Part shown: positions 3,096 to 64,000 of the stretch, in pieces
Numbering within the stretch: the stretch's first letter is position 1
How the letters are laid out: the number at the start of each line of letters is the position of its first letter
DNA from: Hysterangium stoloniferum
Taxonomy: Eukaryota > Basidiomycota > Agaricomycetes > Hysterangiales > Hysterangiaceae
NCBI GenBank assembly: GCA_015178975.1
Contig: WHVD01000136.1
Coordinates: 158,887-222,886, forward strand
DNA: 64,000 nt
Reading direction: 5' to 3'
Notes under the pieces: model-generated
What the model was told of the DNA's origin: nothing
What the model saw: the letters and a program-made list of their open reading frames with translations, nothing else
Databases searched by the model: none
Translations under genes and position numbers: made by a program

Positions 3096-5642
3096 CTATT
3101 TTAAAGTCTCTGATACCCCAAATCCACCTTCCGGCTCTTCAGCAATTTCCGCACTTTCCACCATATCCTGCACCTCTTCATCCTCACTCTCCGATTCTTC
3201 CGGTCCATTTCCTGACTCCCACCTTTTTTCAACACTTTCCGCCAACAGATCATTAGGCTTTTCCTGTGCCTTATCGGAAAACCTCTCAGATACTGCGATA
3301 ACACCAATGCTAACCATTATCTTCTCCAGGAAATCGTTTTGCCTCCGGAAATCTCAGATTAACGAATGGAAACCTTTCTCCTGGATATCATTATGGCGAT
3401 CCATTGTGTCCCGCATTTTCATGACTTCTGTCCCGATAAAAACCAACACATCGACGGTTTCCTTGAGGAGCTCAATGTCTGTAGTATCCATTTTCGGTGT
3501 CTCAGTTTCCGCAGCTTTGGCCGCTCCTGAACTTCCCGCTGTAAGTTCGTTACTAGGAAAAGACCTAATAACCTGCGTGCAATGGTCAAGTCTTTATGAC
3601 GGTCACTGACACAGTCGTTCTTGAAACCAGTCTATAACCAAACACACTCGGAGCGAGAGGCTAGAGATCGGACCTTGGATGACATAAACGAAGATGATAT
3701 CAAAAGGCTGACATAAGCCTAATGTCGAGGAGTGTAGAACTTCAACAATAAGAGACACTACAGTATCCCTTACTGGCCATAGGAGTGAGACTGAGAGTAA
3801 AGTAAGACTTAAGAGATTGTCCTTAAGAATGAGCTTCAAAATGAGATACAACGAAATTGCTTGTTCAATAGTGGGCAAAGGAGAGGCCCTTATATACATG
3901 AGGAAGCACAGGTCAAAACAAACATCTACAAACAATGACACAATAACGATGCAATATGGTGTGAGTCATCTCTGAGTCATCACAATAGGAGTGTTAGTAA
4001 AGCTGTGAACAAAAATAGGGGGAGGCTGCGCTGAACAATAAGAGAATGACAAACAAAAGATGAGATCAGACATGTGATACGGATAAATGGGGAAACACAA
4101 TAGAACAATAGGAGAAGTGAGTCAGACAATAGGGATGATGGAGTAATAGAAGTGATGGCTGATGAAATATCAATGATATGAGTCAGAAACACAAGAATCC
4201 CACGATAATGTGTCACCCTCAAATGCTATGCTTGATTTCGAAATATTGACAATATTACCAATCGATGAACCGAGATTGGACGTATTGTGTTCCTAGTTTT
4301 GCAGTATAAGGAGGGGACACAATCAATCACCATTTAGAACCAGGTGGTGAGTAGGCTCCACAACCATGCAAGGAACATGAATTGACGACGACCTCGACGA
4401 GGCTCTACTTGACTTCCCTCTGGAACCGGGGTCCTAAATAACTTGGGTCCTCTGTGATCTCCTACTGGAGTGAACGTTGCCATGTAATAGATTCCCGATG
4501 ACGGTGGGGAACAGTCCTGCTGGAACACTCGATCGAATTGATAGTGGAGGATTTCGGAGGAGCCATCATAGTGCTCTATACGAATGAAGACAGGATCGTC
4601 TGGAGCATATGGGAGTCGAATACCTTGTCGACAGAGGAAACGATGGTATTTCTTGGAGGAGCATGAGTGGGCTGGTAGGGGCTTGGAAATGATGTCTGAG
4701 GATGAGGAGAAGTGAGATGTTATTGGCTGGAGTTCTATTTGGGAGTGAAGAGTTGGTTTCGAGTAGGAACTGAGGGTTACTTTGGAGGACGATGCAGTGT
4801 TGAACATGATGGAGTTTTGGTCGTCTTTTTGATGAAACTGATTTGGCTGTGTAGAAGTCATCTTGAGTGCCAAAGTATATATAAGAATTTGTGCTGTGAC
4901 GTGACTTGAAACTATAACCATATTAGTCTCTTTCCGATTGAACTCTCTACACCGCATCGTTAGCTTTTGGAGTCTTCTCACCTTGTGGAACCCTTTTCGA
5001 GGCGAGGGTGCATGGAAGTTTGAGAACCGCACAGGGATAACAAGTTCCACCCCATTTTACCTTCTGTTTCCAACATGTCATATTCCGTATGGAACATCGA
5101 TAACACAGAGTTTCATGGACGATTTCCATCCGTTCCGGAGCCTTGACCTTTGGTTTCTGTTTCGGAAGTTAATTCAAATACCGACCTTTTGTAGATGCAC
5201 TTACTTTAGGACTTGAAGGTCCAGCCTCTCCCTCCACCTCCATCTCCACAGCTTTTCGCTGTATCAAAAGTTATCGGTCGGAACCATGGAAAATATGGAT
5301 CAAACTTACTTTTCCTTCCCTTATCTCTTTCAGTTTTTCCGCCATCTCTGACTCCCGCTGTAACTTTTCCGCCTCTTCCTTCTTTTTCTGAGCCTCCGCT
5401 GTTTTCTGGATCCACGCTTCTTTTTCCGCTTTCGCCCGCTCCAACTCCTGTTTTTCTGCCTCTTCTGCATCTTTCAACTCCTGCATCAACGCCTTCTCCT
5501 CCTCTTCCTGTCGTCGCTTCAACTCCTCCATCCTTTGTCGTTTTTGTTGAAGTTCTGCAACCTTCAACATCTTTTGTAGAATGGCAATTTCGGTATCTGA
5601 GTCTTCCGGGGTAGTGATGAATAACGGCCGATGAATTGACAT
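3096..5642 (-). pseudogene. G1-a antisense accessory gene: coiled coil plus Zn2Cys6-type cluster, three exons
   Basis: Gene on the strand opposite pol, lying between pol and the 3' LTR. Exon 1 (5642-5310, 111 codons) encodes a long charged Glu/Lys/Gln-rich segment, probably a coiled coil. Intron 1 is 5309-5259 (51 bp, GTAAGT..CAG). Exon 2 is 5258-5205 (18 codons). Intron 2 is 5204-5157 (48 bp). Exon 3 starts at 5156 and encodes a cysteine pattern C-X2-C-X6-C-X10-C-X2-C-X6-C (5105-5010), which fits the fungal binuclear zinc cluster. Exon 3 then meets a stop at 4947 and is separated by about 1.35 kb of unrelated sequence from its homologous C-terminal coding part (about 3550-3096, acidic end). 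Splice phases are consistent (all phase 0). A nuclear DNA-binding role is inferred from the cluster type only. Broken here, but structurally the same as the copies in G1-d and G1-e. Confidence 0.8.
3600..4930 (-). other. Insertion inside the antisense gene, with an unrecognised ORF
   Basis: About 1.35 kb separates the two halves of the accessory exon 3. On the minus strand it holds an ORF 4861-4334 (175 aa) preceded by a TATA-like stretch (about 4880). The protein is Ser-rich at its N-terminus, then has a globular-looking part (PDDPVFIRIEHYDG). I do not recognise it. The rest (about 3600-4330) has no long convincing ORF but holds another TATA-like sequence (about 3890-3897, minus), as an LTR might. 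Boundaries are approximate and I found no clear target-site duplication. It could be an unclassified LTR element or a retained spacer. Confidence 0.4.
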
Positions 5643-5826: not shown

Positions 5827-6391
5827 TGTTACGACCCGTTCCCGGATGTTTCAATATCCGATTTCCGATCTCCGACTTCCGACTTCCGATCCCCGACTAT
5901 GGAACATCATAGTTACTGTATCATCCGCATTCTTCCCTTGTTCCACATTTGGTAATTTGTCCGTTGACAAGTATTCACTCATTTGTTTGTTGTATTCCCA
6001 TTTCGGAATATTGTCTCCCTAATATGTCTTATTGTATTTCCATTTTAAGAACACTTCCGTTTCCGTCTTATTATGGTCTTAGTTTGTAGTACAATAACGA
6101 GTAGACTTATATTAGTTTCTGCAAATTTGTACTTTACCTTAGATCTGATATCGACTTAGTTTCTTATTCCTCCTCCCGTCTTTCTGTACGCTTGATATTC
6201 GGAACTCTTCGGAACTCTGAATATCCATATCTTCCGTTGTAAGTTTTACTTCCGAAATTAAGGACATTGAGCGTTTGCGTAGAGGCGCAGCACATAAGCT
6301 GAAGCCGACATCCTGACCCTATCCACGAGTTTCCAACTTCCCGGTGACTTTCCGATAGTTCTGGAATAAGTTCCCGACACGGCACTTAACA
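5827..6391 (+). repeat. 3' LTR of G1-a
   Basis: 565 bp beginning TGTTACGACC and ending CTTAACA. It is preceded by a G-rich polypurine tract (AGGGGGGTAC, 5817-5826). It carries the conserved G1 stem-loop (6283-6307). A CpG-poor relative of this LTR, in reverse orientation, is the solo LTR at 18799-19310. Confidence 0.88.
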
Positions 6392-13405: not shown

Positions 13406-15777
13406 TCTGAAAATGCCGTCACCCAGCCCTTCTCTGAATATCTCTCTGCTTTCAATATGGTAATCCGCTTCTGTCCAGCTGCCTTGGTGGAAAACCCGAT
13501 GCTATGACTAGACAATGGGACATCTATCCTAAAGAGGGGAGTAACGACTATGCCACAGTTAATCTGCATAATTTCAAGCCTATGTGTTCATCAGAACAAC
13601 TGTCCAAGTTAATCCAAGCTACTTACCTTATACATCCAGTCATGCACAGTGTTATCCTTATGGACACCAAAAAATTACATCAAGATATATTATCGGCATT
13701 TCCATTAGACCCAGTCACCAAAGCACACCTCAATAACCCATCTGACCCCAATCATACCCGATGGTCACTCGACCTGCAAGTTTTCATTAAACTTGACAAC
13801 CACATTTATGTTCTGGACTCAAACACTCTCTGACTTTGAGTTTTACAGCATAAACATGACCACCTGATCTCGGGACATTTCAGTATCAATAAAACCCTTG
13901 GACTTATCTGAAGAGAATATACATGGCCCGGTGTGAGAGGTATGGTGAAATATACTCAGGAAATATAGTCTGGATGAGCCCATACTATATTTCCATTATT
14001 ATTTCTACTTTCTCTCTATTTTATTATACACTTATATTTAGTTTGATGACCTATGTATGCAGTACATTGACTCTTGTGGGTGCATACATGCCAGACTTAT
14101 GTATTCTAGCACCCGTAGTTAGAACTCAGACACTTTTTACCCGGTGACCACGACTTACCCAGACACCTGTTAGTGTCCTGTAAGTTGTGATTGGGGTATC
14201 ATCTTGACCATCACACATGGGCTTTAACTATCTATGCAATCAGAGTTTCGAACTGTATCAGTTGAAACTCCATCTATATCTCAATCCACGTGGACTACAT
14301 CCACGCTACTCTATTATTCGACTCTCTCGTTACTTTCTTCTACACTTGAGCAGTCATTCGGAATCGTACTTAACAGTTGATTCCCTTTATTTGTTTTAGC
14401 TCTCTACTCTACTTTAGATAGCTATTTCACTCAACCGTATTGAACTAAGTAGTCAATACCTGTTCAGTCTGTATTAGACTTAGACAGTCAATACATCTTT
14501 GTGTCATACCTAAACGGTCGATATTCTTCATATATAGAACAGTTAGAACTTCCACCACTCTTCACACCCGGTCTCCAAGATTTTGTCAAGCATTATTGTA
14601 AATCATGCACCAACTGTGCACATTCCAAATCAAGATGTCACAAACCATATGGCCTACTCAAACAACCCCTAATACCAGAAAAACCCTGGAATTCAATATC
14701 AATGGATTTCATCAAACACCTACCAGCATCCAATGGCCATACTGCAATTTTTGTTGTTGTGGATCGGCTTACCAAGCAAAGTATTTTCATTTCAACTTAT
14801 GATACAGTAACATCCATACAGTTGGCTGAATTGTTTGTCACTCATGTATTCTCCAAGCATGGCATTCCATTGCATGTCACTTCCGATTGCAGATCTGAGT
14901 TCATCTCTCACTTTTTTAGGTCACTCGGAAAAGCACTTGACATGAAACTCCATTTCATTTCTGGCTACCACCTGGAAAGTGACAACCAAACCGAATGCAC
15001 TAATCAAACACTGGAACAGTACATCTGAGTCTATTGCAACTATTAACAAGACAATTTGAAATCACTTCTACCACTTGCCAAATTTGCATATAACAATGCC
15101 CCAAATGCTACTACTGGCATTTCGCCTTTCTTCACAAATAAAGGCTACAACCCAAACATCACTATCCATCTGGAACGCAATCTCACTTCAACCTGTGCTC
15201 AGGACTTTGTCACAAACCTCAATGAGCTACACCAAGAACTTCGAAAGAACATCGCATTGGCCCAGGAACATTACCAATACTCTACAGACAAAAATCGGCG
15301 GCTGCCCCCAGAACTCAAGATTGGTGACTGAGTATTTGTCAAAGCCGAGTTCTTCCGAATGACTAGGCCATCCAAAAAGCTCACCAATAAGTACTTAGGG
15401 CCTTTTGAAATTATAGCACAAGCAGGCACACACTCTTGGACACTTCGGCTCCCCAAGAATATGTATGCAGTACACTGGTATTTCATGTCTCAATGTTAGA
15501 ACCTTACGTTGCTAACATGATACCAGAATGCATACAACCTCCACCTCCACCCATGGTTATTGACGGGGAACCCAAATTTGAGATATCGGAAATCCTAGAT
15601 TCAAAGATGGATACTCACTGATGTACCTGCAAACTACTATATTTGGTCAAGTGGACAGGTTATGAAGGTACCAATGAAGAAGCATCCTGGATGATTCTTG
15701 CCACAGAACTCGGAAATGCATTGGACATTGTCAAAGACTTCCATCAAGCATATCCGAACAAATCCAGACCCCTATAA
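13405..15777 (+). pseudogene. pol: G1-b pol remnant (end of RNase H, integrase, chromodomain)
   Basis: 5'-truncated Ty3/gypsy pol. It picks up at the end of RNase H near 13430, continues through the linker (13504-13830; LHQDILSAF), is interrupted by a 635-bp solo G2 LTR at 13932-14566, then resumes with the integrase zinc half-site (YCKSCTNC) and core (SMDFIKHLP; the Arg after the second Asp is now Cys, VTSDCRSEF). TGA or TAA codons occur near 13831, 15026, 15045 and 15328. The chromodomain end reads YLVKWTGYEG with a TGA a little upstream where the G1-a copy has CGA. Several stops are thus explained by C to T change. Not functional. Confidence 0.88.
13932..14566 (+). repeat. Solo LTR of family G2 inside G1-b pol
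   Basis: 635 bp, TGTGAGAGG...CTTCACA, flanked by CCCGG at 13927-13931 and 14567-14571. It is collinear with the 5' LTR at 29202-29838. Removing it and one CCCGG restores the interrupted integrase alignment, so G2 was active after G1-b inserted. Confidence 0.93.
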
Positions 15778-16381
15778 CCTATGGCACCCTGACATTTTCC
15801 GACACTCTCTGCATTTTGGCATCTTTGGACTTTCATCACCCCTGTTCCCCTTGCCCTGTTTGTCTGCTCCCACATTTTCAGTGTGCTTGGATCCCTTGGA
15901 ACTTCCGGACTCTGTTCTGGACCTTTTCAGACTTTCAGACCTTATTGGATTTTCAGACATTTTTAGTTTTCTGGACCTTTTCAGAGGTTTTGAATTTACA
16001 TTCAAGTATCCAAATATGACCATGGCCTCATCCTGACCTTCATCTTGATCTTGACTTTCTGAATCCTCTCTGAATCCTCTCTGAATCCTTTCCAAACCCT
16101 TTCCAAACCCTTTCCAAACCCTTTCCAAACCCTTTCCAAACCCTTTCCAAACCCTTTCCAAACCCTTTCCAAACCCTTTCCAAACCCTTTCCAAACCCTT
16201 TCCAAACCCTTTCCAAACCCTTTCCAAACCCTTTCCAAACCCTTTCCAAACCCTTTCCAAACCCTTTCCAAACCCTTTCCAGCACCTTGCCAAATCACAT
16301 CCCCTTCTGACCTTCCTGCTTTTACCTTATTCTTCAGCACTTTTTCAGCCTCCTTGGGATTTTGGCCAAATGGGGGGATAC
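15778..16381 (-). other. G1-b post-pol region with 11-bp minisatellite
   Basis: Between the pol end and the 3' LTR, at the location of the antisense accessory gene of other G1 copies. Here no Zn2Cys6 pattern is present. About 18 tandem copies of an 11-bp unit (CCAAACCCTTT) run from about 16083 to 16281, next to three copies of a related TGAATCCTCTC unit. Because 33 bp has no stop on the minus strand, all three minus frames stay open and encode an 11-aa repeat (WKGFGKGLERV). Coding status is doubtful. The G-rich polypurine tract ATGGGGGGATA immediately precedes the LTR. Confidence 0.6.
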
Positions 16382-17174
16382 TGTTATGACCGTGTCGTAA
16401 CCTGTGTCGCAACCCGATGGTTTCTGAGAATACTACTGTCCATCGACATTCCAAGTTATTGATCAAGTCATCATTTCGGCAACTGTCAGAACACCGACGC
16501 TGACGTATACCTTCATGGTGATCAAACCCCATTTATACCCCTGTCAAAATATACTCGTACCATCTGGTTATGCTTTGATATGTCCCCTTTCATTATGATG
16601 ATCCATTTTACTCTATGTTTCACATATGCCTGTATATACTTGTAGCCTGTGGACTATTCCCTTTTCTTGTAATCCCACTCTCGGCTAAATCTCGGCTTCC
16701 GATCTTATTGTAACCTTCTGGTTTCTAGTCAAGTCTATTTGTCAAATAGTGTTTCTGCTCTTCCCTTAGTTTGTAGTTTCTAGATGCCGATAACTCGTAT
16801 ATAAGACCCACTGTAATGTAACTACTAGACAATCAGAATATCAACTTAGATACCTCTCTATTTCTGACTCTGTTATCTATTCACAACCACCACATTCCAA
16901 CTCGATCCAATTTATGATTCAACCTACATTTACGACTTCAACCTCTAATCTCCAACTCTCACTCTCCAACTCTCTGACCCAACCCTCAACTTATCCTTCA
17001 GTTTCCGATTGGTAGTTTACCGAGAGGTTTACTTGACAGGACTAGTTTCTGCCCGCCCGAAATTTAAGGACACCTGACAGTAACTTGCGAGGGCACAGCA
17101 CATAAGCTGAAGCCAAGTCCTTCCATTTGGTCCCCATCGGTCTACTGACATCCATAAGTTTTCTGTTCTTAACA
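16382..17174 (+). repeat. 3' LTR of G1-b
   Basis: 793 bp, TGTTATGACC...TTCTTAACA. It has a TATA box near 16798 (GTATATAAG) and the conserved stem-loop at 17089-17114. TGTTATG in place of TGTTACG is a CpG transition relative to other G1 LTRs. Confidence 0.88.
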
Positions 17175-32321: not shown

Positions 32322-33866
32322 CAGTAGGCAACAAAACCATTTGGATGTTTCTTTGTTTTGAAAAGGCCCTTTAGCATTAGCCCAAAATAAATTATGATAG
32401 ATGCTCTAATATCACAAAATGTTGATTACATAACCATGATGTCATATGTCCATTTATGGCAATGTAATAATAGGATTAATGAAGCTTGTACATCCGAACA
32501 GTTTTGTTGCCTGCATTTTATAAACCCTATATACTAAACTAGTACTTGGTATAGCCTCCCTTGGCCTTAATTCCAGCTTCAACTCTTCTAGGCATACCTT
32601 TTATCAAGTTCTGACACACCTCCTTTGGTATCTTTTCCCATTCTACTTGACAGTGATCCCAAAGTTCCTCCACTCCATTAGGTAGTGTGTTGTAGTCAGT
32701 TAGCCTCCTTTTCAAGGGTTTAGATCTGGAGACTGTGGTGGCCATTTCATAACAGTATAGCCATGGTCATCAAACCACTTTTGAGCATTTTTCTGGTATG
32801 CTTTGGCGCATTATGCTGCTGGAAGATGGTATCAGATGGAGTTTCTTTGTAAAACTCAAGGGATTGCTGAAGTTCATCCTCCAAGATGGAGCAGTAAAGC
32901 TGTGAATCCATCTTCCCTTAAATCCTGGTGGCATATCCAATGCCTTCCCAATGCATGCAATCCCACATCATCACACTACCACCACCAAACTTCAATGTTC
33001 CCTCCACCTCACAGGAGGGAGAGGGTAGAGAGACATCAGGAGTACACTCTGGAGGTCTGGAAGAGAGTTGTATTCTCTGATGAGACCAAAATCAATTGTC
33101 TTGGGTCAGATGGAAGGAAGTGGTTGTAGAAAAAGGTGGGGGAGGGGTTGACTAATAGGCAGGTGGAGGGAACATTGAAGTTTGGTGGTGGTAGTGTGAT
33201 GATGTGGGATTGCATGCATTGGGAAGGCATTGGATATGCCACTAGGATTGAAGGGAAGATGGATTCACAGCTTTACTGCTCCATCTTGGAGGATGAACTT
33301 CAGCAATCCCTTGAGTTTTACAAAGAAACTCCATCTGATACCATCTTCCAGCAGCATAATGGGCCAAAGCATACCAGAAAACTGCTCAAAAGTGGTTTGA
33401 TGACCATGGCTATACTGTTATGAAATGGCCACCACAGTCTCCAGATCTAAACCCTTGAAAAGGAGGCTAACTGACTACAACACTACCTAATGGAGTGGAG
33501 GAACTTTGGGAGCACTGTCAAGTGGAATGGGAAAAGATACCAAAGGAGGTGTGTCAGAACTTGATAAAAGGTATGCCTAGAAGAGTTGAAGCTGGAATTA
33601 AGGCCAAGGGAGGCTATACCAAGTACTAGTTTAGTATATAGGGTTTATAAAATGCAGGCAACAAAACTGTTCGGATGTACAAGCTTCATTAATCCTATTA
33701 TTACATTGCCATAAATGGACATATGACATCATGGTTAGGTAATCAACATTTTGTGATATTAGAGCATCTATCATAATTTATTCAGAATTTTTAGAATTTA
33801 TTTTGGGCTAATGCTAAAGGGTCTTTTCAAAACAAAGAAACATCCAAATGGTTTTGTTGCCTACTG
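32322..33866. mobile_element. Tc1/mariner foldback element with 690-bp inverted arms
   Basis: 1545 bp flanked by TA (32320-32321 and 33867-33868). Ends CAGTAGGCAACAAAACC and its inverse. Left arm 32322-33009 is the near-perfect reverse complement of right arm 33171-33866, leaving a loop of about 161 bp. The arms contain the 3' half of a Tc1 transposase, including the same internal deletion around the third catalytic residue, so the arm was duplicated after that deletion. The element cannot encode an intact transposase. Confidence 0.92.
33010..33632 (+). pseudogene. Tc1 transposase, C-terminal half (inactive)
   Basis: Reads EVWKRVVFSDETKIN (first catalytic Asp in SDET), a TAG at about 33127, then GGGSVMMWDCMHW, IFQQHNGPKHT (His where the second catalytic Asp is expected), and a tail EELWEHCQVEWEKIPKEV ending GGYTKY-TAG at about 33630. 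The SPDLNP motif runs into a TGA, and the third catalytic acidic residue is deleted. The inverted partial copy occupies 32520-33009. Confidence 0.82.
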
Positions 33867-34689: not shown

Positions 34690-35020
34690 TATGCTTCTGC
34701 CCAACTTCAGTCATCTCCTGAGAGAGCTCCACTACCTCTGCAGGCACCCCATCCTCATCCAAACTGGCATCCTTGGAACTCCGATCTGCAGCTCCTCATA
34801 AACATAGCTGCCAAACTCCACCAGGAACTTCCAAAACTCTGAGTGGAGCCAGCAGAGTTTGTACACCACCACTACCTGCACCTTGTTGCTCTTCCTAAGC
34901 AACTCATTTTGGGCCTCTATGCCCTTGGCAATCTGCCCCGAAACTTCATCCAGTCCCAAAATCCCATCTGACCCACTTATATCCTGCACCATGGACCCCA
35001 TGGGCTGCTCTGTTATAGTC
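34690..35020 (-). pseudogene. G1-c antisense accessory gene remnant
   Basis: Minus-strand reading shows GIEAQNELLRKSNKVQVVVV, the segment that in G1-d and G1-e follows the Zn2Cys6 cluster (GIEAQNELLWKSNKV, GIEAQNELLRKSNKV). The cluster, coiled coil and promoter are deleted: at about 35018 the sequence passes directly into LTR. Confidence 0.85.
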
Positions 35021-38511: not shown

Positions 38512-39351
38512 TGTTAGGATACACACACAGGCCAGGTTTCCGGAGAAACCCACGGGATATCTGGTAGGACTTGGCTTCAGCTTATAGGCTGTGCCCTCAC
38601 TAGATCGTGTTGTCCAATTTCAAACGGACGGACGGGGATCCCGGGGAGTCTGGGCGGGGTTCGTGGGTTGTAGGTCGTAAGTCGGAGGTCGTGGGTCGTA
38701 AGTCAGGGGTCATGGGTCATGAGTCGAGTTGGTTGAGAGAGGTAGATGCGCCGGAGCCCGTGGGCTCCGACTAGTGCGAGCGATGTGAATCAAGTAAGGT
38801 TTTAGAGTGGAAAATATTATTAGATTACTGGGGGGAATCTAAGCTAACTTTCTGACTGGATTGTATGTACAACATCTGCCAGTTTATATAGACCATGGAG
38901 TGAATGACATACCAAATCCAGTAATGGCGAAACGAAACTAACAAAACATGAAACGGGAATAGTAAACACCAAATTGGTGTTAGGAATGGAACGGAACGGA
39001 GCGGAGTCTGAATCATGACAAAGCATAACCCATAACGGGAAACGGAGCGGGAGCGGAGTCCTAAATCGTGACAGGTCATTTGACTAAAACGGGAACGGGG
39101 GTCGATTAGAGCAGTGACGGGATTCTAAGCGGGGTCCAGTGACTGATGCGTGGGACGAAGATGGACATAGACAGAGACGGAGTCCGGGGGAAGTCTGGTG
39201 ACTGATATGTGTCATATTGAGGTCGAACGTAACAAGTCTTGACGTAACGGAGTCCGGGCAGGAAATCCTATAAACAGACGATTGGTGCTTGTAGCGCGTG
39301 GGGGCGTACGGGTTAGTGCCCAGAGTCCGGCGGGATTGTCCAGTCGTAACA
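38512..39351 (-). repeat. 3' LTR of G1-d
   Basis: 840 bp, plus-strand TGTTAGGATACAC...GTCGTAACA. It differs from its partner at 46276-47240 mainly at CpG sites and by lacking a long GGAAC array. A purine-rich tract (element orientation AAAGGGAGGATAC) adjoins it at 39352-39364. Confidence 0.95.
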
Positions 39352-39502
39352 GTATCCTCCCTTTATGCCGAAGTCCCAAAGAGGCTCTAGACCTAGATAA
39401 GGTTCCTGTCGGCTATGCGCATGTGTCAAAAAGTCATGTCGGTTACACGTATGTGTCAAAGAGTCATGTGATCTGGAAGGTAAGGTTCAAACGCGACGAG
39501 CC

Positions 39503-39513
39503 TATATATAAAT
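39503..39513 (+). promoter_or_regulatory. TATA box of the antisense accessory gene (G1-d)
   Basis: TATATATAAAT 50-60 nt upstream of the ATG at 39563, followed by a pyrimidine-rich leader (TTTCTTCTTCTTTATTACCC), a layout typical of fungal Pol II promoters. It lies between the LTR and the accessory gene, not in the LTR. Confidence 0.65.
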
Positions 39514-39562
39514 TTGAAAAAATAGAAATTTCTTCTTCTTTATTACCCCCATCATCGATAGC

Positions 39563-40556
39563 ATGGGACCAAAGCCCACGCCACGCAAGCCTATGCCAAC
39601 CACCGGGCCCTCCACGGGCAGTCAGTACTGGGTGCCGCTGTCCGCTGCCCAAATCTTGGCGCAGTGGGACGAGCAACGACGACAGCATGAAGAGGCGGAG
39701 CGAGAAGCCTGGGAGGTCGAGGAGGCCTTGAACAGGGAATACCAGGCGGCCATGGCCGCGGAGGAAGAGGCTGTGAGGCAAAAGCAAAGGGAGGAGGAGG
39801 AGGCTGCGCGAGTGGCCACGGAGAAGGCCAGGGTAGCGGCTGAGAAAGCCCGGGTGGCCGCGGAGTGAGCTCGGTAGTTGCAGGAAAGGTAAGTCCCATA
39901 GTTCAACTTCTTGTTTTTTTTTGACTTGGCATTTTCAGCGCAAGGCAGCGGAAGTCGAGTCCAAGTCCAAGGGGGAGCAAGAAAGCCCCAACAAAGTGAG
40001 TCTCGTGTCTGTGGGTATACCGTGGAGCTAACTGTGTCAACAGAAAGCAAGGAAGGCGGCGCCAGTCTGCCTATCGACTTGGAACGACCTGCAGTGTTCC
40101 GGTTGTAATGACTGGAACACTGAGTGCAATCGGAAGTCCGGCCAGGGCCTGGGGTGTTATCAGTGCATGCACCTCAAGGCGAGGTGCTCGCTCGTTCACG
40201 AGCAGGCTGCGGGGTCCGGTTCACGGGAGAATAGCGGGTCGGACGGGTACTCCGGTTTGGAAGAAGCCTTGGGACGGATCGCCGAGGGCATTGAAGCCCA
40301 AAACGAGTTGCTCTGGAAGAGCAACAAAGTCAGCGTGATTATGGCGAATGATCTCCGCGCAATCTGCAGGGACCACTTCAAGTTCCTGATGGAGTATGCC
40401 GGCTTTGTATATGACAAGCTGGAGGACGGGAGTTCTGAGGAGGAGGTGCCCACAGAGATCGCAGAGCTACCCGAGGAGATGAATGAGGCTGGAAAAGCTG
40501 AGGTGGAAAAAGAGGCGGGGAAAAAAGATAGCCCCATCAATGTAGATGAAGAATAG
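39563..40556 (+). pseudogene. G1-d antisense accessory gene: coiled coil plus Zn2Cys6-type cluster
   Basis: Best preserved copy. Exon 1 39563-39888: N-terminal PTPRKPMPTTGPSTG, then a long Glu/Ala/Arg-rich coiled-coil segment. Intron 1 39889-39938 (50 bp). Exon 2 39939-39995 (19 codons, charged). Intron 2 39996-40043 (48 bp, with GCTAAC branch-like site). Exon 3 40044-40556 (170 aa) carries C-X2-C-X6-C-X9-C-X2-C-X6-C (40095-40187), then GIEAQNELLWKSNKV, a helical stretch and an acidic tail ending INVDEE. Exon 1 has in-frame TGA (39866) and TAG (39875), which look like CGA and CAG changes, and seems one base short before the splice site. So this copy is a pseudogene, but splice sites and the zinc cluster are intact. 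Expected role, by cluster type: nuclear sequence-specific DNA binding; the target is unknown. Confidence 0.85.
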
Positions 40557-40756
40557 AAGTAAAAACTTTAATCATAATTTGAACATAAAAAAGTAAAGCG
40601 TGAAAACATAAAAATAGAAGTCAAAGCCAAAGTCCACGGGGAGTCCGCTTAAGACTTGACAAGACATGTCAGAACCTGTAAAAGCAAAGAGAGACATAGG
40701 GCGACAGGGAAAAATGAAAATGAGTTTAAACGTAACACAGGGTCTGCGGGGTGTGG

Positions 40757-43700
40757 TTAGAGAGAAGATAATGGTCCAGGTTTGAGTGGGTAAGCTGTAT
40801 GAAAGTCAGTAACTATTTCCGTGGCATTACCGAGTTCCGTGGCCAAAATCCATGAGGTCTCTTCATCAGTGCCCTCGTAACCCGCCCACTTGACCAAGTA
40901 AAGCAGTTTACAAGTGCGTCGACGCTTGTCTATTTTTGAATCTAAAATCTGTGAGATTTCAAACTTGGGTTCTCCGTCAATGATGACAGGAGGAGGCGGA
41001 GATTGCATGCGATCCGGGATAGTGTTAGCAGTACAAGGTTCTAGCATAGAAACATGAAATACCGGGTGTACCACGGAAGCTGTAGAGTCCAAGAGACTGA
41101 ACCTACTTGTGTGATAATTTCAAACGGGCCTAAATATTTTTCAGCAAGCTTCTTTGATGGACGCGTAGTCCTGAAGAATTGAGCTTTGACATAAACACAG
41201 TCGCCAATCTTGAAGTTGGGTGGCGGGATCTGGTGTTTGTCTGCTGAATGTTGGTATTGCTCTTGGGTGGACAATATTGCAGTCCGGAGTTCCTCATGGA
41301 GCTCGTGGAGGTCCGTGGTGAACTCTTGAGTGCAAACAGAGGCGAGATTTCGTTCTGGATGTACTGTAATATTTGGATTATATCCTTTATTTGCAAAGAA
41401 CGGGGAAACGCCAGTAGTGGCTGAGGGTGCATTGTTGTAAGCAAACTCTGCAAGTGGTAACAAGGTCTTCCAATTGTCCTGTTGGTAGTTGCAATATACG
41501 CGGAGGTATTGTTCCAATGTCTGGTTGACATGTTCGGTTTGTCTGTCACCTTCCGGATGATGTCCGGACGTGAAATGTAATGTCATGTCCAAGGATTTTC
41601 CGAGGGATCTAAAGAAGTGAGACACGAACTCTGATCCTCTATCGGAAGTCACATGGGATGGAACTCCGTGCTTGGAAAATACATGGATAATGAAAAGTTC
41701 CGCTAACTGCACGAATGTAATTGTATCATAAGTAGGGATGAATATACCTTGTTTTGAGAATCTGTCAACAACGACTAGAATAGCAGAAAAACCTTCGGAA
41801 TCCGGTAGGTGTTCAATGAAATCCATAGATATAGAATTCCACGGGTGTTCCGGTACCGGGAGTTGTTTCAAAAGGCCGTATGGCTTGTGTCGCTGAGATT
41901 TCGAGCGGGGACAAGTAGTGCAAGATTTACAATAGTGCTTAAGAAATCCACGGAGTCTGGGCCAAGTATATTCTCTTCTTATTAATGATAGAGTTTTGTT
42001 GTACCCGAAATGTCCTGAGAGTAGATGATCATGTTTGTATTGAAGGATCCTGAGGCGGAGGCCGTCGGAGTCCGGTACATAGATACGATCGTCAAGTCTA
42101 ATGAAACCATGTTGATCAAGAGACCACCGAGGTTGATCGGGGTCCACGGGATTGTCCAGATGAGCTTTAGTAACTGGGTCTAGCGGAATTGCCGATAGAA
42201 TATCTTGATGTAACTTCTCAATATCCATAATGATAATTCCATGGACAATGGGATTGACGAGGAAAGTTGCGCGGACCGATGCAGTAAGCTGTTGATTCAT
42301 GAAAATAGGTTTCAGGTTGTGCGGATTTACTGTTGCATAGTCGTTGCTCTCCTCTTTAGGATAGACGTCCCATCGTCTAGTTAAAGCATCGGGTTTGCCG
42401 CCGAGACGGCTGGGTCGAAAGCGGATAATCATGTTGAAGGCAGAGAGATATTCAGACCAGCGGGCCTGCCGGTGGGTCAAGATTTTTGTGGTAGAAAAGT
42501 ATTCCAGGTTTTTGTGATCTGTTACAACGTCAATAGGAGCTCCTGAGCCTTCCAAATAGTGTCACCATGCTTTGAAAGCTGAAAAGATTGCCAGAAGTTC
42601 TTTATCATGAATGTTGTAGTTGAGCTCTGCTCCGGTAAAAGTCTGGGACAGAAAAGCCACGGGGTGAACTTCTCCGTCGGAGTCCTGGATAGAGAGAATG
42701 GCTCCAAGTGCATAGTCGGAGGCGTCCGTTTCAACAATGAGCGGGAAGTCCGGTTTCCAATGCGACAGAATAGGAGCTGTAGAAAAAGAATTTTTTAAAA
42801 GATTGAAAGCTTTTTGACACTTATCATTAAAGTTCCACGGAGTACCCTTACGTGTAAGATGGGTAAGGGGTACCGTGATGTCGGAATATCCACGGATAAA
42901 ACATCTGTAAAAATTGGCAAAGCTGAGGAAGGATTGTATATCTTTAACTTTTCGGGGTTCGGGCCAATCTTTGATGACTTGCACTTTAGTTTCGTCCATG
43001 CGGAGTCCATCGGGTCCCATCATGACACCTAGGTATTCCATGGAGTCTGTGTCAAAAGTACATTTTTTACCGTTTGCAAATAAACCATGTTGTCTGAGCC
43101 TCCAGAGAACTTCACGGACTTGTTTGTCATGTTCCGCGGGATTCTCGGAGTAGATAAGAATGTCGTCCAAGTAAACAATGACACATACATCGAGCATGTC
43201 GGAGAAAATGTCATTGATAAAACAATGAAAAACAGACGGAGCATTGGTGAGTCCAAAGGGGATGACCAACCACTCGAAGGCGCCATAACGGGTTCTAAAA
43301 GTGGTTTTCCATTTGTCGCCCACGGCAATCCGGACCAAATGATAGGCGTTCTTGAGATCTATTTTGGTGTAAATCTGGGCATTCCGCGGGGCATCGAGCA
43401 GGTCAGATATGAGTGGGAGTGGATATTTGTCCTTTTTGGTGACAGCCTTGAGTCCTCTAAAATCAACACATAGTCGAAGGGATCCATCCTTTTTTCTGAC
43501 AAACAGAACAGGTGTGAAGAGTGGTGGAAGTTCTGACCGTTCTATATACAAAGAAATGAGTAGAAAGGAAGGATATTGACCTATTCGGTGCAATATAAGA
43601 GAAAGTGAGAGAAAGAGCACGAGATGACGAAGGAGTCAACGAGTGCGATGGTTCGAGTGGAGGCCTCCACTATTACAGTTCGAGGCCAGAAGTGTTTAGT

Positions 43701-45080
43701 AGTTCAGATATTGCTACTTATGTAGTAGCTGACACGTTACCCTAATCACCGCTCGTAGTAGACCTAGTTTGTGTCTTACGAGTGGTGGTTCTTGGGTTAA
43801 AGTGTGTCTGAGTTCTAATTGGTGCTGAGTGCACCCACAAGTATACACAATGCTTCGAACTAATGAAATATGCAAGATTCGAAGAATATGAAAGATAGAA
43901 AAATATGAATAAAATATGTAAAATATAAATGAAATAAAAGGAGTGTTTTACCACAATGATACTGTGGTAAAAGCATACTCCTCACAACAGGTGCTCCAAA
44001 AGGAGACTTTGAGGGTCGAATAAAACCTATAGACAAATGTTCATCCAGGAAATCACGGATTGCGGATAATTCCGTGGACGAAAGCGGGTAAATATGTCCT
44101 AGGGGTGGCTGGGCACCATCTTCAAGATCGATTTTTAAGTCGTATTCTCTATGAGGCAGAAGCCAGTCAGCTTTCCGCTTGCTAAAAACATCTGCGAAGT
44201 CATGATATTTCTCCGGGACGCCTTCTAGGTCAGCGGCTTGCTCAGATTCAGATACCGGGGTTGAAAAACGTCCAGTTGCTTCATCAATTTTTAAATTGAT
44301 AGTGAACGCCTGGGACCCATCCATTTTTGAAGCCCTAATAAAAGCTGCAGCATTAATCAGAGAAATGGACGGAGGTGCCGTGGGTTCTGGGGAAGCCATT
44401 GGTGCCATAGGGATCACAGGAGTCCTCGAGACTGCAGGTGCCAGGAAGGCCATGGGTGCCGTGGAGGCCGAGACAGGCGCAGTTTCCTTGGTCACTGCAG
44501 GAGTCCGGAATGTTATACTGTTAGCTATCCAGTCAATCAACGGATTGTAGTGGGTAAGCCAGTTATGTCCTAGGACCACCGAGCAACTTGAGTCTAACTG
44601 GGTCACATAGAAAGTGACCAATTGAGATGTTCCACAAGGGAAATTGATGGGTAAATCACAAGCTTGGGTAACAACCGAATTACTTGTGCCATCGAAGAGG
44701 TGGAGACCGATGGGATTTATCGAATAGGTTGACAAAGAATTTTTTTGCGTGAATTTTGTATCTAAAAAACAATGAGTCAAGCTGGAATCTATGAGAGCTG
44801 AAAAAACGAATTTCAGAATCATATTAGACATAAGTTTAACGAAAAATGAATCAGAATGTGAAAGAGCGGATGCGTTGAGGCGAGTGAACTCTTGAATGCA
44901 CGGAGAGGCAATGCAACCCCTAACCCGCGTGGAGTCTGTGGGGTTGCTTACTCTTTTTTCAAATCGGCAGCCAGTTTGTCCTTCAATGGGGTTTCCATGG
45001 AGGCTTTGGCTGATCAACCCTTTGAAGAGTTTGCTTTTGCCAGTGGACATTCCGGGACTCAATGACCGGGTTTGCCGCAC
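40757..45080 (-). pseudogene. pol: G1-d pol: protease, RT, RNase H, integrase, chromodomain
   Basis: Reading from 45080: protease motif is DSSLTH (DSG in G1-e), then the RT start up to SKSPFGAPV, interrupted by the G2 solo LTR (43513-43986). RT resumes at 43512 with [14 protein letters not shown], has YLDD, and passes into RNase H (VETDASDYALGA). A TGA at 42562-42564 stands where G1-e has CGA. The next ORF (42555-41041) carries the RNase H end, the integrase zinc site and the DDE core with intact motifs (SMDFIEHLP, VTSDRGSEF, the Glu in TEHVNQTLEQY). A deletion of about 13 nt near 41083 shifts the frame before the chromodomain (41092-40757; LYLVKWAGYEG). The integrase is the best preserved of the older copies. 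Confidence 0.93.
43513..43986 (-). repeat. Solo LTR of family G2 inside G1-d pol
   Basis: 474 bp, flanked by ACAGG at 43508-43512 and 43987-43991. On the minus strand it starts TGTGAGGAGTATGC and ends CTCTTCACA. It lies exactly between GAPV and LFVRKK of the RT. Confidence 0.95.
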
Positions 45081-46239
45081 AAGAGACAGAGGTTGTTGTC
45101 CATACGACGTTGTCTTTCTTGTGGAGTCAATTTGCCATCGCGTCCGAGTTTGCCTGAGAGGTCGGGTTTTCCGGCTTGCTTGCCGGACTGTTGACCCTTG
45201 TTGTTGTCCTTATTGTCCTTATTGTTGTTGTTGTTGTTTGAAGACTTTTTATCGTTCTTCTTGTCAGATTGCGTGGAGTTCTGGTTGCTGGTTGACAAAT
45301 TATTGTTATTGTTTTTGTCCTTGGACTTGTTTACTTTGTCCGCGGATGTCTCGCAGGCAACTTCCGCGTGACGTTCCCAATAACATGCATCTGCATTTTG
45401 AGCTTTGAGGTGCATACGGGACAGGTTTTTGGCTTGCCATCTTCTCCTTTCGAGACTTCGTCTTTAAGGTGGGACGGCAGACCGGCGTAGAATTGGTGGT
45501 GGAGAGCGGGATCACCCCACTGACAGCAAGCTGCAAGATTATTGAATTGGACGATATAGTCCGTGATGCGCTGCGTGTCCTTCATACGAAGATTTGTGAG
45601 ACTATTCTCGGCTTCTCTTGTCGGGTCATATGGGCCGAAGTTGGTTTCAAGCTATTCAACAAAAGCCTCCCAATTTTCAAGCCAGAGCAGCTCTTCCTCG
45701 GATATTCCACTAAAAGCCGGTTCAAACCATTTCAATGCGGATCCCGACAAATATGACAGTGCGTAGTTGACTTTTCGGGAGTCTGTGGAGAATGCAGTGG
45801 CACGATCACGGAAGTTGAAGCGACATTGCATGAGGAAAGTAGAGAGTTTGTTTGGGTTGGAACCTGTGAAGGGTTCCGGAGCATTGACTTTTGACCATGG
45901 AGGTTCTTGTTCTCTTTTCTTTCGTTCTTCGAGCAGGTGCATCATGAATTTATCTATAGTACCTGCTAAAAATTCAGAAGTAGGATCCCCCAAATGCGGT
46001 CGTTGAACAGGCGGAGGGATTTCGAGAGGGATTTCGACACCTTTACCCTTGTCAGGGGCCACGGAATCATCCTCATGCTCAGATTCGTCCAGGTTTTCCG
46101 GGACTTCTTCGATACGGGCTTCTTCCATGGGTTCCAACTGGTTCGCAAGCATCTGACTGGTATACAGAGTTAACGGGGAATGAAGAGTCGACGGTCCAGG
46201 TATTGATGACTGTGCGCGTGTACTTCTTCTTGGTGGCAT
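45059..46239 (-). pseudogene. gag: G1-d gag with CCHC knuckle
   Basis: Starts MPPRRSTRAQSS at 46239, like G1-e gag. The first ORF stops at 45652 inside the capsid region (ENWEAFVE). The frame continues, shifts near 45410, and reaches the Asn/Lys-rich low-complexity linker and the nucleocapsid knuckle CLLCGKPGH, where a TGA replaces the following CGA near 45059. Product role: particle assembly and RNA packaging. Non-functional here. Confidence 0.92.
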
Positions 46240-46275
46240 AATGAAAACAATCTGCGAGTATTAGTCAGAAAATAC

Positions 46276-47240
46276 TGTTAGGATACACACACAGGCCGGG
46301 TTTCCGGAGAAACCCGCAGGATATCCAGTAGGACTTGGCTTCAGCTTATAGGCTGCACCCTCGCTAGATCGTGTTGTCCAATTTCAAATGGACGGACGGG
46401 GATCCCGGGGAGTCTGGGCGGGGTTCATGGGTCGTAGGTCATAAGTCGGAGGTCGTGGGTTGTAAGTCGGGGGTCGTGGGTCGTGAGTCGAGTTGGTTGA
46501 GAGAGGTAGATGCGCCGGAGCCCGTGGGCTCCGACTAGTGCGAGCGATGTGAATCAAGTAAGGTTTTAGAGCGGAAAATATTATTAGATTACTGGGGGGA
46601 ATCTAAGCTAATTCTCTGACTGGATTGTATGTACAACATCTGCCAGTTTATATAGACCATGGAGTGAATGACATACTAAATCCAGTAATGGCGAAACGAA
46701 ACTAACAAAACATGAAACGGGAATAGTAAACACCAAATTGGTGTTAGGAACGGAACAGAACGGAACAGAACGGAACAGAACGGAATGGAATGGAACGGAA
46801 CGGAACGGAACGGAACGGAACGGAACGGAACGGAACGGAACGGAACGGAACGGAACGGAACGGAACGGAACGGAATGGAACGGAACGGAGCGGAGTCCGA
46901 ATCGTGACAAAGCATAACCCATAACGGGAAATGGAGCGGGAGCGGAGTCCTAAATTGTGACAGGTCATTTGACTAAAATGGGAACGGGGCTCGATTAGAG
47001 TGGTGACAGGATTCTAAGTGGGGTCCGGTGACTGATGCGTGGGACGAAGACAGACATAGACAGAGACAGAGTCCGGGGGAAGTCCGGTGACTGATATGTG
47101 TCATATTGAGGTCGAACGTAACGAGTCTTGATGTAACAGAGTCCGGGCGGGAAATCCTATAAACAGACAATTGGTGCTTGTAGCGCGTGGGGCAATACAG
47201 GTTAGTGCCCAGAGTCCAGCGGGATTGTCTGGTCGTAACA
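46276..47240 (-). repeat. 5' LTR of G1-d, with GGAAC expansion
   Basis: 965 bp, 125 bp longer than its partner because of about 25-30 GGAAC units (about 46745-46890) where the 3' LTR has only a few. The self-priming pair is present: AGTCAGAGAAT in the leader against ATTTTCTGACT after the LTR, with one G-U type mismatch. Confidence 0.93.
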
Positions 47241-63489: not shown

Positions 63490-64000
63490 CAGTCTACATT
63501 TATGGGACTGTTCTTTTTCCCTGCTTCCTCAGCTATCTCCTCTGGGAGCTCCGCGACCTCCGCGGCAACCCGTCCTCATCCGATCCGGCATCCTCGGAAC
63601 TCCCGACTTGCGGCTCTTCAAAGACATAGCCGCCATACTCCGCCAGGAACTTCCAAAACTCCTCGCGGAGTCCGGACAGCTCCTTTGCCACCACAATTTG
63701 GACTTTGTTGCTCTTCCGGAGCAACTCGTTTTGGGCCTCGATGCCCTCGGCGATCCGTCCAAGGACCTCGTCCAACCCGGACAACCCGTCCGTCCCGCTT
63801 ATGTCTCGCGCCCGGATCCCGTGGCCTGCTCGTGCACAAGCGAGCACCTCGCCTTGAGGTGCGCGCATTGATAACATCCCGGCCCCCGGCCGGCCTTTCG
63901 GTTGCATTCCGTGTTCCGGTCGTTGCAACCGGAACACCGCGGCTCGTTCCGCGTCGGAAGACGGACTGGCGCCGCCTTCCTTGCCTTCTGTTGAGTTGGT
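63490..64000 (-). pseudogene. G1-e antisense accessory gene, exon 3 (partial)
   Basis: Minus strand. Acceptor CAACTCAACAG ends an intron at 63988, and exon 3 begins at 63987 as in G1-d. Cluster C-X2-C-X6-C-X9-C-X2-C-X6-C lies at about 63936-63844. A 1-nt deletion near 63810 and another shift near 63560 break the frame. Between them GIEAQNELLRKSNKVQIVVAKE is readable, and after them the family tail SPINVD ends at 63490-63492. Exons 1 and 2 are outside the window. Confidence 0.85.

Follow-up and report, generated by a model that had tools for sequence, protein, structure and literature searches.

Does the strand opposite to the genes of a fungal retrotransposon carry a gene of its own, and if so, what would its product do for the element? 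The question is raised by a 64,000-nucleotide stretch of Hysterangium stoloniferum DNA (hereafter, the window), in which a putative gene on the plus strand (39563–40556) lies within an element that reads in the other direction (Table 1). The original prediction, made from the letters alone, described it as three exons, the second of them tiny. The structure is as described, with two GT..AG introns and an exon 2 of 19 codons. Both introns are phase 0 in each of the two element families treated below, A and B. The prediction had also claimed identical intron positions in a divergent copy on the minus strand (5642–3096); that copy does share both, with an exon 2 of 18 codons, and the alignment between intact A and B proteins has an E-value of 1e-22.

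Table 1. Coordinates of the element, the antisense gene and its copies within the window.
Feature	Positions	Strand	Remarks
Full-length family-A Ty3/gypsy chromovirus, subfamily A2	38512–47240	−	8.7 kb; GTTAT on both sides; carries the antisense gene
5' LTR of this element	46276–47240	−	49 mismatches in 860 aligned bases against the other LTR
3' LTR of this element	38512–39351	−	
TATA-like box	39503–39512	+	Some 60 bp upstream of the ATG, within the element but not in the LTR
Antisense gene, exon 1	39563–39888	+	Charged and helix-like; interrupted here by two in-frame stops
Antisense gene, exon 2	39939–39995	+	19 codons; middle of bipartite-NLS-like stretch
Antisense gene, exon 3	40044–40556	+	Six-Cys cluster C-X2-C-X6-C-X9-C-X2-C-X6-C, helix with GIEAQNELL, acidic tail
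Family-B copy, exon 1	5310–5642	−	
Family-B copy, exon 2	5205–5258	−	18 codons
Family-B copy, exon 3, first part	4952–5156	−	Contains the six-Cys cluster
Insert splitting family-B exon 3	3540–4951	−	1,412 bp, TG..CA
Family-B copy, exon 3, remainder	3096–3539	−	
Family-A copy, exon 3	63490–63987	−	Frame lost after cluster; exons 1–2 would fall past the contig end
Family-A remnant, exon 3 tail	34690–35020	−	Adjoins LTR-like sequence; no cluster

The host elements are Ty3/gypsy chromoviruses, with gag, protease, reverse transcriptase, RNase H, integrase parts and a chromodomain. Pfam domains were assigned on four pol or gag pieces from sister copies: the family-A pieces match gag, RVP_2, RVT_1, RNase H, Integrase_H2C2, SH3_Tf2-1 and Chromo at or above the cut-off, and the family-B pieces match rve and SH3_Tf2-1 at or above it and Chromo exactly at it. 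The LTRs of the one element examined in this respect (38512–47240) have TG..CA ends and a 5-bp target duplication.

In both sister families, A and B, the antisense gene lies between pol and the 3' LTR. The stop codons of pol and of the antisense gene are 210 bases apart in a young copy (L006), so the two genes do not overlap. TATA-like boxes precede the ATG by 60 bp in family A and by 56 bp in family B, in both cases within the element but not in its LTR. Among representatives of the four subfamilies (A1, A2, B1 and B2), the frame of the antisense gene is the only one that is open in both long exons of all four. A sense-strand open reading frame at the same place was considered and rejected: some A1 frames are open there, but neither A2 exon 3 nor family B has an open one.

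The original prediction saw the same gene in four copies of the window. The antisense gene is indeed there, but all four copies (4/4) are damaged; the one at 39563 has its two in-frame stops near the end of an exon 1 whose length is 3n+2, and the window lies at the end of its contig, which cuts the copy at 63987. The six-Cys cluster, claimed as common to the copies, is found in three of the four, as the remnant at 34690–35020 keeps the exon-3 tail alone. The CpG observed/expected ratio of this remnant is 0.11, compared with 0.99 (L006) and 1.13 (L032) in young copies, hinting at methylation- or RIP-like decay. The insert in the family-B copy resembles a solo LTR, with GCGG on both sides; the best 40 of its 277 candidate copies, itself included, are 96–100 per cent identical, and it carries a 175-amino-acid open reading frame that has no Pfam match. 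Elsewhere in the window (32386–33782) there is an inverted repeat whose two arms, 303 and 323 nt long, are 99 per cent complementary.

Intact copies are found across the genome (111 Mb in 554 contigs searched). The family-A exon-3 query has at least 150 matching places (150 of the 150 scored, the best of 1141 candidates), and the family-B query likewise at least 150 (150/150, the best of 813 candidates). For each family, we fetched the 30 loci that scored best by protein, a sample found through the antisense gene itself and biased toward intact copies. Exon anchors allowed 26 of the family-A loci to be parsed. Of these, 24 passed the script test, and without L002, whose exon 3 is cut to 61 positions, 23 encode a whole protein of 294–297 amino acids. 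In family B, full-length open frames of 343–350 amino acids are present in 15 of 19 parsed loci; 16 passed, including the split window copy, which is not counted among the 15, and one of the 15 (L055) has a tail that is frameshifted in the alignment. Most loci align to one copy spanning the end of pol, the gene and part of the LTR: 23 of 30 over at least 3.15 kb in family A and 23 of 30 over at least 2.9 kb in family B. Intronless copies, as traces of spliced transcripts, were not seen among loci parsed with anchors that required introns, and the two longest open frames listed (L095 and L096) both keep the two introns. At two further loci (L061 and L062), read by eye, the 3' part of the family-A gene adjoins LTR sequence like that of a third family, C. 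A GenBank model from H. stoloniferum, BU17DRAFT_80596 (P0001), seems to run across this junction; it has one place in the genome at 99 per cent identity over residues 65–201, and the next best place is at 91 per cent.

Is the reading frame maintained for its protein? A dN/dS near 1 had been named in advance as the outcome that would speak against the gene, and the opposite was found. Whole-gene comparisons of one representative per subfamily give ratios of 0.22–0.24: 0.222 for A1 (L006) against A2 (L093) over exons 1 and 3 (dN 0.167, dS 0.751; 41/41/105 differences by codon position) and 0.235 for B1 (L032) against B2 (L039) (dN 0.071, dS 0.302; 23/27/61). Exon 2 was left out of the A1–A2 comparison because its length in L093 is off by one. 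Neutral simulations (500 per comparison) matched the observed changes in number and kind and took CpG context into account; a ratio as low was reached in 0/500 for A1–A2 and 0/500 for B1–B2. The simulated genes acquired on average 5.3 (A1–A2) and 3.5 (B1–B2) stop codons, compared with none observed, and only 3 and 8 of the 500 simulations, respectively, were free of stops.

The constraint extends along the gene. Over 56 B1–B2 pairs, the ratio of sums is 0.30 for exon 1, 0.16 for the cluster part and 0.30 for the exon-3 tail, and the A1–A2 values of dN and dS point in the same direction (exon 1, 0.158/0.827; cluster, 0.094/0.744; tail, 0.219/0.674). Because exon 1 and the exon-3 tail lie outside the search queries, there is less worry that loci picked by score must look constrained. 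Pairs taken inside B1 or inside B2 give equally low ratios (medians 0.28 over 28 pairs and 0.31 over 21 pairs), so some bias toward intact copies may remain, and picking by score may help to cause them. The YN00 method returns a higher B1–B2 ratio (0.41, a single pair) and A1–A2 ratios of 0.29 for exon 1 and 0.22 for exon 3. Ratios between families A and B were set aside, as their synonymous sites are saturated. Together, these comparisons indicate that the antisense open reading frame is conserved at the protein level, and they support a real, selected, element-borne antisense gene.

The proteins of both families begin with a charged part, continue with a stretch that resembles a bipartite nuclear localization signal (NLS) and is formed by the junction of all three exons (KRK-x16-KKAR in A, KRK-x15-KKPK in B), and then carry the six cysteines. 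The arrangement C-X2-C-X6-C-X9/10-C-X2-C-X6-C is kept in 38 of 38 open coding sequences of A and B combined; by chance, such spacing arose in 0 of 200000 random placements of six cysteines. The 23 family-A proteins have no cysteine besides the cluster, and the family-B proteins have 6 to 8 in total. The cluster is followed by a helix (with GIEAQNELL in A) and an acidic tail. Heptad periodicity of the exon-3 helix is above that of shuffled sequences (reached by 16 of 1000 in A and 47 of 1000 in B). The coiled coil that had been proposed for exon 1 was not secured, as its periodicity is not clearly above that of shuffles (reached by 87 of 1000 in A and 338 of 1000 in B). AlphaFold2 models are poor (mean pLDDT 46 and 55), and a fold search with the second of them found no match at E 0.001.

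The spacing of the cysteines invites comparison with the zinc clusters of fungal regulators. Zn2Cys6 domains follow the rule C-X2-C-X6-C-X5-12-C-X2-C-X6-8-C and have basic residues between the second and the third cysteine. All 38 open coding sequences conform to the spacing. Their basic residues are few, with one arginine between the second and the third cysteine in each family (NDRNTE in A, SIRNMT in B). The Pfam family Zn_clus (PF00172) is matched by 11 of 13 cluster sequences at E-values up to 10, and it is the only Pfam family touched by more than one of the 13, but the best match (E = 0.026, 15.1 bits) is below the gathering cut-off of 21 bits. Six of the seven best stretches are out of register, and the whole proteins score 8.0 bits (A) or do not match (B). 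When sequences were shuffled with the cysteines fixed, 2 of 10 matched Zn_clus, one of them better than any real sequence (E = 0.0042, 17.6 bits). With sub-cut-off scores, out-of-register stretches and matching shuffles, the Pfam result is evidence of no more than the cysteine spacing. With the cluster profile, the PDB gives a single match at E-values up to 10, the fungal regulator PPR1 (E = 0.3), and a single-sequence PDB search with exon 3 returned four chance-level matches (best E = 0.066), none of them a zinc-cluster protein. The likeness to PPR1 and PF00172 is thus one of cysteine spacing, and the protein differs from them in its sub-cut-off score, in its few basic residues and in that Cys-fixed shuffles do as well. 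We regard the module as probably metal-binding and do not file it under Zn2Cys6.

Candidate target sites were sought in the LTRs. CGG half-sites, a possible mark of LTR targets, were rejected: pol and the antisense gene are enriched in them just as the LTRs are, so that they are uninformative on targets. The original interpretation stands in part. A selected antisense gene is supported; that the element encodes its own DNA-binding regulator is plausible, with a spacing that fits Zn2Cys6 on one side, and sub-cut-off Zn_clus scores, equally good shuffles and no LTR-specific CGG enrichment on the other. The LTRs also contain 7-bp tandem arrays (38661–38726 in family A and 5857–5890 in family B), at different places within the two LTRs; by the same measure, the family-C LTR of the window has none. 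In the two family-B LTR stretches, the array cores CCGAC and CGACT are over-represented, and none of the three pol stretches tested contains CGACT, a pattern that says no more than that the arrays are there.

How old is the association between gene and element? Median DNA identities of pol over 63 loci are 77.4 per cent between A and B, 72.0 per cent between A and C and 72.1 per cent between B and C. The C-terminal part of pol is 86 per cent identical between A and B over 319 amino acids, whereas the homologous antisense proteins are 30 per cent identical over 210 amino acids, with intron positions, architecture and the NLS-like stretch in common. By these sequence comparisons, the antisense protein diverges much faster than pol between the families, yet is constrained within them. 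In family C, the more distant sister, neither tblastn nor a six-frame profile search of 30 loci found anything significant that resembles the gene; five of the 30 were readable up to the LTR with the anchors used, and these have a charged antisense stretch that is not distinguishable from chance. The original prediction had listed absence from the same place in other family members as evidence against it; absence from a related family was seen in part. The distribution fits either a gain in the ancestor of A and B or a loss in C. Family C is repetitive despite having no detectable antisense gene, which counts against the self-regulator reading given below, though its copies look old. Between pol and LTR (15772–16385), the family-C element of the window carries tandem repeats of 11 bp, together with a charged stretch on the antisense strand whose kinship to the A/B gene is unsupported.

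Relatives are few. The search of the protein database gave two relatives, both from H. stoloniferum, and an alignment query returned one of these two again (among the best 7993 candidates). The family-B query found no relative in the protein database, none was found in viral_contigs, and the protein searches, whose method needs shared five-residue words, gave no match among ascomycete proteins. One of the two database proteins (P0002) has the exon 1–exon 2 junction that we propose but lacks most of exon 3; for that junction it is an independent, predicted gene model.

The place of the gene, its intron structure, its conservation, the homology of its A and B forms and the selection on its protein can be read from the sequences themselves; its function has to be argued. 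We favour a nuclear self-regulator that would tune the transcription or persistence of the element by binding DNA or chromatin, a reading that we hold to be an even call on the sequence features described. An accessory protein of about 300–350 amino acids would be encoded on the antisense strand of the element. Transcription of its gene would start at a separate TATA promoter, situated a little inward of the 3' LTR, and run toward pol, followed by splicing. Its introns, being antisense to the genomic RNA and thus presumably invisible to the splicing of that RNA, would escape removal and be copied at each transposition. The protein would enter the nucleus via the bipartite-NLS-like stretch and be held together by its helices, and the six-Cys module, probably zinc-binding, would contact the DNA or chromatin of its own family. 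Such binding may tune the element's transcription or persistence in the manner of HTLV-1 HBZ and of what has been proposed for the Grande gene23 and Retand TRP28 proteins, which would be the nearest functional parallels. A bolder version is less likely than not: each of the two sister families would carry on its antisense strand a captured, spliced, fungal-type zinc-cluster regulator that recognizes the DNA of its own family and co-diverges with it, giving each family a private control or anti-silencing circuit that is passed on by way of the antisense introns.

Rather unlikely, in our judgement, is a protein that acts in the nucleus against host silencing of its own family by binding short repeated motifs in the non-coding DNA of the element. 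The precedent is VANC of the Arabidopsis VANDAL transposons, proteins which the elements encode and which evolve in step with the DNA that they target (PMC5735166); VANDALs are not LTR elements, and VANC is named here as a functional analogue only, for its fast, family-specific divergence. Counteraction of silencing would agree with a divergence between sister families that far outpaces pol, with the CpG-depleted old remnant (0.11, 34690–35020) as a hint of methylation- or RIP-like pressure, and with the 7-bp arrays and their core words, but the arrays of A and B do not share a position within the LTR. Less probable again is a factor for nuclear traffic that carries the preintegration complex into the nucleus or exports the genomic RNA, like retroviral Rev or, as reported, CERV of Cer1, with the Cys module binding RNA or the complex. 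The NLS-like stretch, the helices and selection at the level of the element would suit such a role; nothing in the protein is RNA-specific, however, and family C has no detectable gene in the 30 loci searched. It is very improbable that the antisense transcript acts as RNA (by dsRNA or interference) with an incidental reading frame, since the built-in convergent overlap with the sense transcript is largely outweighed by the dN/dS of 0.22–0.24, the third-position bias and the introns kept between open exons. Equally improbable is a recently captured host gene travelling as a passenger: the introns and TATA promoter do resemble those of a host gene, but two families at 77 per cent pol DNA identity both keep the gene under constraint, and no host-type relative appeared in the protein searches.

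Comparable antisense genes are known from other retroelements. HBZ of HTLV-1 is a spliced gene whose product is a coiled-coil bZIP protein with a regulatory role. It resembles the gene described here as an antisense gene of a retroelement with a nuclear protein (PMC11963269); the likeness is by description, not by sequence, and no bZIP is among the Pfam matches of the antisense protein. The plant elements Grande and Retand are similar in the place and orientation of their antisense genes and in the nuclear or DNA-binding role proposed for them, and Grande has its own promoter upstream of the antisense gene, as we propose here (PMC7264820 and PMC11963269). They differ in being plant elements rather than a basidiomycete chromovirus, and the fungal gene is distinguished by its predicted splicing, its three exons and the six-Cys cluster; the Pfam family TRP28 (PF04195), from Retand, has no match in the antisense protein at E-values up to 10.

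A fungal case is brtn, an antisense gene reported for the Boty elements of Botrytis (PMC7264820, PMC8365987, PMC4227169 and PMC5987419). In Botrytis cinerea, it lies between pol and the 3' LTR of a fungal chromodomain element (PMC7264820 and PMC4227169); Botrytis is an ascomycete, and the comparison rests on the described place and orientation, not on the sequence of BRTN. With brtn on record (PMC7264820), the claim that no fungal case had been described can hold at most for this domain. Among the matches listed from the freely licensed literature, none describes an antisense gene of this kind in a basidiomycete, or one with a six-Cys cluster. Antisense accessory genes at this place are thus already known from Grande, Retand and Boty, and the basidiomycete, three-exon, six-Cys form is a new variant.

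No function has been established for the antisense accessory genes that LTR elements carry (PMC7264820). In H. stoloniferum, a single fungal genome contains many young copies that are nearly identical, and the gene combines a conserved Cys module and a candidate promoter with measurable selection, so that the localization of the protein, its binding to DNA and its effect on the element are directly testable. The gene also shows introns that survive retrotransposition, presumably by virtue of lying antisense to the genomic RNA, and its accessory protein outpaces pol by far in the divergence of the sister families.
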